From a virus: DNA of 64,000 nucleotides. Within the stretch, counting starts at the first letter, position 1, and every line of letters starts with the position of its first letter. Positions 37,265 through 37,950 of this stretch are shown here, one piece after another. Both the position numbers and the translations under genes were made by a program. The stretch lies in the IMG/VR virus record IMGVR_UViG_3300033149_000928, positions 20,414 through 84,413 of that record; one strand, 5' to 3'. The notes beneath the pieces are model-generated. The model searched no databases, was not told where the DNA came from, and worked only from the letters and a program-made list of their open reading frames with translations.

Positions 37265-37950
37265 TAGTACAGTATAAAACTACACCTTACCTTCACACAA
37301 CCTTACTATACACAACTATGCAATACCTTTACATAACAAGACAGCACGGTATAAGACCATACCCTTACTTTACTTTACCTCGCGGTACTGTACTTTACTG
37401 CACCTTCACAACACGTTACTAGAGGCCACTACACAATACCCTCACCTTACCCTCACCTAACAAAACACAACATGACAAGACTATACCATTACCAGACAGT
37501 ACACTACCATGCGCTACGGTGCCTCACCTAACTTCACCTTTACCCAACACTATGGGACAGTACACTACCTTGACAATACCACACAGTATTTTACGTAACA
37601 CTACTACACCATCGCGATACTTCGCCAGACTATACCATAACCACACAGTACCATAACCGTACCGGACAAGATATGACCTTACCATACCATTACCCTACGT
37701 AACCTAACTATACCTTTACTGCACAAAACGAACTAGACCCAACATCGCCATAACGGGACTACGCGTGACTACGCGTGACTACGCGTGACTACACCATTAC
37801 TCGACCCAACCGAACCCCACAGTACCATACCTTTACATCACCTAACCCAACCGCACCATTACAAGACTTCACACCAGATAACTATGCCTTACCATTACTC
37901 TACCCAACACCACCCCTCTACACCATTACTAAACCAAACGTGACCGTACC
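37265..37950 (+). repeat. Degenerate pentamer array (ACNNN)n, about 127 units
   Basis: No gene on either strand. AC dinucleotides recur every 5 bases on the plus strand, keeping register for 3-10 units and then slipping by +1: A positions modulo 5 run 4,0,1,2,3,4,0,1 and so on from 37269 to 37922, giving 18 net extra bases over about 127 units (mean period about 5.14). The NNN triplets vary but avoid G. Where AC is missing, a single change (AT, AG, GC) usually explains it. A perfect local 10-mer, ACTACGCGTG, occurs three times (37758-37787). Confidence 0.85.

Follow-up and report, generated by a model that had tools for sequence, protein, structure and literature searches.

A punctuated pentanucleotide array beside a RAMP-fold gene in phage DNA is very probably a VIPR guide array

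Results

The window analysed here is the whole stretch of 64,000 nucleotides (64 kb) and belongs to a virus record of 84,413 bp. The following features lie at the locus, given with their window coordinates, their strand, and the means of their recognition.

38638..38907, minus strand: ORF upstream of vipr, 89 aa, DUF7352 / phrog_3848 (Pfam, PHROG), a possible accessory (vap) gene
37952..38584, minus strand: putative vipr gene, 210-aa RAMP/Cas7-fold protein with the C-terminal G-loop ALGQWHNSGKGR (AlphaFold, Foldseek, profile, hhalign)
37950..37955, minus strand: first six-nucleotide unit of the array, GTGATG, which holds the TGA stop codon of vipr (sequence, ORF end, parse)
37259..37958, minus strand: probable guide-RNA (vrRNA-type) array of 136 GTNNN units, including 21 six-nucleotide GYNANG units (autocorrelation, Fourier, parse, motif spacing)
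37246..37258, no strand: copy of a dispersed palindrome, GATTTAGTAAATC, abutting the far end of the array (palindrome scan)
36940..37221, minus strand: next ORF on the downstream side, 93 aa, without a match in Pfam or PHROG

A dynamic-programming parse resolved the array into 136 units, which read ACNNN on the plus strand and GTNNN on the minus strand, the coding strand of the flanking genes. The steps between units comprised 113 of five, 21 of six, and one of four bases, giving a mean step (slope) of 5.146, and the Fourier peak was found at 5.14-5.15. The autocorrelation of AC at lag 5 was 75 in comparison to 25.9 in dinucleotide-preserving shuffles (z = 11.6), it was also high at lags 10, 31, and 36, and nowhere in the rest of the 64-kb window did the AC periodicity come near that of the array. 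These values bear out the original prediction, which had described AC at every fifth base over about 127 units with a mean step of about 5.14 and a dinucleotide fixed at constant spacing among otherwise free bases. Its description of the strand as nearly G-free was too strong, as 70 of 696 plus-strand bases are G and the array is merely G-poor. The constant dinucleotide is GY on the minus strand, and the preceding G is relaxed to any base, with C being less frequent. No ORF spans the array. At about 37750-37790, the array contains an exact 10-bp triplication of GACTACGCGT, which is a recent slippage by two units.

All six-base units of the array read GYNANG on the minus strand, with the A and the G both being invariant (21/21 each). 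The +1 slips that had been noted at every 3-10 units are thus real, but they are non-random and consist of a sequence-specific unit. The related motif G[ACT]NANGG (GHNANGG) by itself divides the array into pieces that measure 11 to 51 bp, and 19 of the 20 spacings between these motifs equal 6+5n, i.e., are congruent to 1 mod 5. Offsets 2 and 4 of the six-nucleotide units lack a dinucleotide pattern resembling that of the guide pair described below. The long-range phase of the array was no tighter than with shuffled intervals (fraction 0.51). As one six-nucleotide unit occurs per 4-7 pentamers, the mean step of 5.14 is explained and a long-range phase constraint is unnecessary. Helical-phase locking across 690 bp was therefore rejected, and the earlier suggestion of duplex-DNA contacts spaced by half a helical turn is not supported. 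The start of the array lies within the stop codon of the 210-aa gene.

The 210-aa product matched nothing in Pfam or PHROG, but the sequence profile of its family had Cas7 as the best match in the PDB (E 0.015). The AlphaFold model (pLDDT 85.2) gave the type VII Cas7 8z4j_J (E 6.5e-8) and Csm3 as top Foldseek matches in the PDB, both with a probability of 1.0. Judged from its length and secondary structure, the protein has a single RRM, and it ends with the glycine-rich loop GQWHNSGKGR, which is conserved across the family. A RAMP protein of the kind that oligomerises on guide RNAs is thus encoded immediately upstream of the array, in agreement with the original prediction of repeated contacts by an oligomeric protein. 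Of the two substrates then considered, the predicted RAMP fits the option of a protein on the GUNNN transcript.

The arrangement resembles VIPR, a system described in a 2026 preprint (PMC13142463), which has overtaken the former statement of not knowing any such phage element. According to the accessible text of that preprint, VIPR consists of a phage RAMP protein, Vipr, and of vrRNAs made of GGY/NN pentanucleotides, with "a related consensus" to GGY also being allowed; the vrRNAs have 9-16 repeats each and recognise double-stranded DNA via NN with a one-base skip, the skipped base falling at the codon wobble position. Seven types are distinguished, some of them with "staggered arrays with overlapping vrRNAs" (PMC13142463, fig. 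S18). As a control, we scanned Escherichia phage SUSP1, the model phage of the preprint, and found three GGTNN runs adjoining a 195-aa gene. The profile of the 210-aa family aligned end to end with this gene in hhalign (E 1.7e-4, albeit with a probability of only 49%), whereas the negative control, an alignment to the neighbouring gene, gave E 0.52, and the loop GxGxWRxxxGRFxxE is common to the SUSP1 protein and the 210-aa family. As the GGTNN runs of the SUSP1 control lie beside the very gene to which our profile can be aligned over the full length, membership in VIPR is well supported, and we assign a probability of roughly 0.92 to the view that the locus represents the guide array of a VIPR system encoded by the phage. 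The variable bases are then not noise, and two of the three in each unit most likely constitute the guide. An invariant structured 3' tail or a convincing Rfam match was not detected in the array region of the window; such a tail may be missing from continuous arrays, or something else may take its place there. Searches for Rfam families and hammerheads in this region and in seven relatives yielded nothing convincing.

Relatives of vipr were collected from 45 viral and 40 genome loci, which together with the window gives 86 loci; the genome loci are mostly from Clostridia. Arrays of the same period were detected at 80 of the 86 loci, nearly always adjoining the gene and usually beside it, using a detector threshold of 24 at a top score of 18 on shuffled DNA, and an independent G-periodicity scan agreed with the detector. 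The periodicity is therefore found in other phage genomes as well, a search that had been proposed at the outset. The array sequences are unrelated between loci, while the period and the six-nucleotide unit persist. In the pooled arrays, 817 GHNANGG spacings are shorter than 60 nt, of which 614 are congruent to 1 mod 5; their distribution peaks at 26, 31, and 36. The Y at offset 1 is loose in the relatives (A in 30%). These counts include near-copies among the loci (for example L026/L027, L034/L035, and L080/L082), and, as GC reads alike on both strands, the parser also yields mirror-strand echoes. The longest array seen, with about 900 units over 4.7 kb, lies at 10736-15398 of L008, a 243-kb phage contig. 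Partial duplications are present within the arrays of L076, L077, and L018, with copies that differ mostly at non-guide offsets; they could be used for studying the origin of guides.

With respect to the guide code, the mutual information between within-unit positions peaks at offsets 2-3 (z 13.9). A guide of eight pentamers is common to two prophage arrays, L070 and L086, which agree in every unit at offsets 2 and 3 but are variable at offsets 1 and 4. The shared guide corresponds to exactly one piece, and the likeness ends at the six-nucleotide unit on both sides. Read with one-base skips, it gives ATxGCxACxGGxACxGGxAAxAC, which encodes MATGTGKT. Of 300 genomes from the host family, 30 contained an exact match to this pattern, in comparison to about 0.3 expected and two matches of the reversed control. 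Translation of 21 matched loci gave MATGTGKT in each case; all of them lie in helicase domains and vary at every wobble base, and the four matched examples tested are R subunits of restriction enzymes (type I and BPTD_3080). When the pattern was lengthened by two bases, ten viral contigs matched, nine of which carry the MATGTGKT P-loop. At the level of sequence, this supports the assigned guide positions and the one-base-skip rule, as judged from a single guide that matches a common motif, the P-loop. The guides of L070 and L086, and so VIPR, may be aimed at host restriction systems. When both guides were extended with three target bases per six-nucleotide unit, no match with up to three mismatches was obtained in about 100 genomes each.

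Three guides of the window itself and two long guides of relatives were without an exact match in the viral contigs scanned. All parsed guides were also compared with 1.4 Mb of phage and prophage DNA; the skip was varied from 0 to 3, several offsets were tried, and the six-nucleotide unit was treated in 15 ways. Nothing exceeded the control, except for array-like matches, the P-loops that had been selected, and a weak excess when three target bases were counted per six-nucleotide unit. A 7-unit match of an L008 guide to a dispersed palindrome of the window was within chance.

This palindrome, with the core GATTTANTAAATC and a consensus of about TTTGATTTASTAAATCAAA, has some 43 copies in 84 kb, of which 33 are exact copies in the window (919, 2596, 6577, ... 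63361) and 10 lie in the first 20 kb of the record (L091). It is situated in intergenic gaps and also within genes, where it is read as D-L-V-N-Q. Allowing up to one mismatch, 79 strand matches were counted in the window versus 0.27 expected, and among the other phage loci it was found only once, in L062. The palindrome looks like a stoperator- or parS-like site, and the copy at the far end of the array is probably not part of the system. Elsewhere in the window, at 61118-63925, there is a helicase gene with an intein that carries a LAGLIDADG domain (Pfam Intein_splicing, LAGLIDADG_3, Helicase_C).

Discussion

As the array is continuous with vipr at the stop codon, co-transcription is likely, and the array, read on the minus strand, would probably form the 3' portion of the vipr transcript. 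One Vipr subunit would grip each pentanucleotide of the RNA (D-G-Y-N-N, cut here as GYNND) via the constant G-Y, and the GUNNN RNA would thereby become coated with subunits. Offsets 2 and 3 after GY would pair with the DNA, followed by the skipping of one target base, which would usually be the codon wobble base; 5 nt of RNA would thus address 3 bp of target. Bound to the matching DNA of a rival phage or of a host gene, the ribonucleoprotein would block transcription there. For the phage of the window, we predict expression, assembly, function, and targets by analogy to other VIPRs, for which ribonucleoprotein formation, binding of double-stranded DNA, and repression of competing phages have been demonstrated according to the preprint's accessible text (PMC13142463).

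Within the VIPR interpretation, the six-nucleotide unit could serve as a guide boundary, a processing point, or a register adaptor. It is a concrete feature that the accessible main text of the preprint leaves unexplained (PMC13142463). If GYNANG delimits separate short guides with 4-8 units apiece, a piece (26-41 nt) would correspond to one vrRNA or to its programmable part. We give this reading something near an even chance, as the guide shared by L070 and L086 fills exactly one piece and loses its likeness at the flanking six-nucleotide units, as the extended patterns of both match nothing, and as offsets 2 and 4 of these units carry no pattern of the guide-pair type. Yet the common pieces would hold only 4-6 guide-base pairs (8-12 nt), which is too few for specificity; the vrRNAs in the accessible text of the preprint have 9-16 repeats (PMC13142463), and a near-duplicate in L077 crosses three pieces.

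If the six-nucleotide unit instead adapts the register, guides would run through it, with its N-A pair or its N alone pairing and three target bases being counted, and the vrRNAs would overlap the pieces, perhaps as "staggered arrays". This is a tentative reading that stays somewhat below even odds. In its favour, treatments with three target bases gave 13-16 extended matches versus 0-9 for the others, a comparison over 15 treatments in which many matches are pre-selected P-loop loci, and the L070 guide extended through both flanking six-nucleotide units matches KMATGTGKTKV in L096. These counts are small and partly selected, however, and the failure of the extended L086 and L070 guides to match in about 100 genomes each, with up to three mismatches being allowed, speaks against it.

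It is very improbable that the array is a DNA or RNA nucleation site (an operator, a packaging or partition site, or a sponge), where an oligomer reads GT only and the variable bases carry no guide. The constancy of GT amid wide variation elsewhere and the guides of the window that were without a target in our scans would suit such a site, but the neighbouring protein has the Cas7 fold of RAMPs, a whole guide recurs in two independent arrays with agreement at offsets 2-3 and differences at offsets 1 and 4, this guide decodes to a real coding motif with variable wobble bases, and the phase is unlocked over long range. A functionless degenerate tandem repeat or decayed coding sequence, for which the exact 10-bp triplication and the lack of an ORF spanning the array could be cited, is refuted by a period that is conserved without sequence conservation, being kept at 80 of 86 loci despite unrelated array sequences, and is further disfavoured by the invariant A and G of the six-nucleotide unit (21/21).

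Returning to VIPR, we consider it possible, though rather unlikely, that the Clostridia phages harbour a branch in which one long, tail-less, punctuated run has GYNANG at every 4-7 pentamers to set the register or end guides, with some guides (those of L070 and L086) being aimed at host restriction enzymes. If true, VIPR would also be an anti-restriction weapon, beyond its use by phages against phages. A dense, uninterrupted guide array belonging to an RNA-guided system that was described only recently is now placed in Clostridia phages and prophages, and the relatives provide independent sequence evidence for its noncontiguous one-base-skip code. The signature of GY at every 5 nt, GHNANGG at spacings of 6+5n, and an adjoining RAMP gene can be used for finding such arrays.

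Among known systems, the trp RNA-binding attenuation protein TRAP is an oligomer that reads RNA through a short motif, G/UAG triplets recurring at intervals of about 5 nt, with spacers of 2-3 nt that carry no information and a ring that takes 11 units. TRAP had been offered as an analogy, which is not supported as a model: it differs in its fold, in its information-free spacers, and in its 11-unit ring, whereas the neighbouring protein here has the RAMP fold and the constant motif is GU rather than GAG/UAG. The Cas7/Csm3 backbones of Class 1 CRISPR systems (type III and type VII) are closer, as they share the RAMP/RRM fold, the glycine-rich loop, and the repetition of subunits along a guide RNA. 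Unlike these systems, the window locus has no CRISPR repeats and spacers (beyond the 5/6-nt units, no identical repeats of a CRISPR array with unique spacers were found in the array), no Cas10 or Cas5 partners were seen, and the repeat is 5 nt versus 6 nt, with the constant bases lying within the guide.

The closest parallels are within VIPR itself. The punctuated, tail-less array may represent the "staggered arrays" of the preprint, which are likewise long and continuous; the architecture is likely the same, as matched by name and mention in the accessible text (PMC13142463). In the type II VIPR of SUSP1, the runs comprise 12-16 GGTNN units without six-nucleotide units, and the vrRNAs are tailed according to that text (PMC13142463). 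The window array instead joins 136 units into one continuous run (L008 has about 900) with a relaxed first G, a six-nucleotide unit at every 4-7 units, and no visible tail. What the locus has in common with the type II VIPR of SUSP1 and of a Pseudomonas fulva prophage, as far as the latter are described in the accessible text (PMC13142463), is a single RAMP of about 20 kDa carried by a phage, neighbouring pentanucleotide repeats that are noncoding and keep GY constant while NN varies, and probably the reading of NN with a one-base skip, which is supported here by one guide of relatives.
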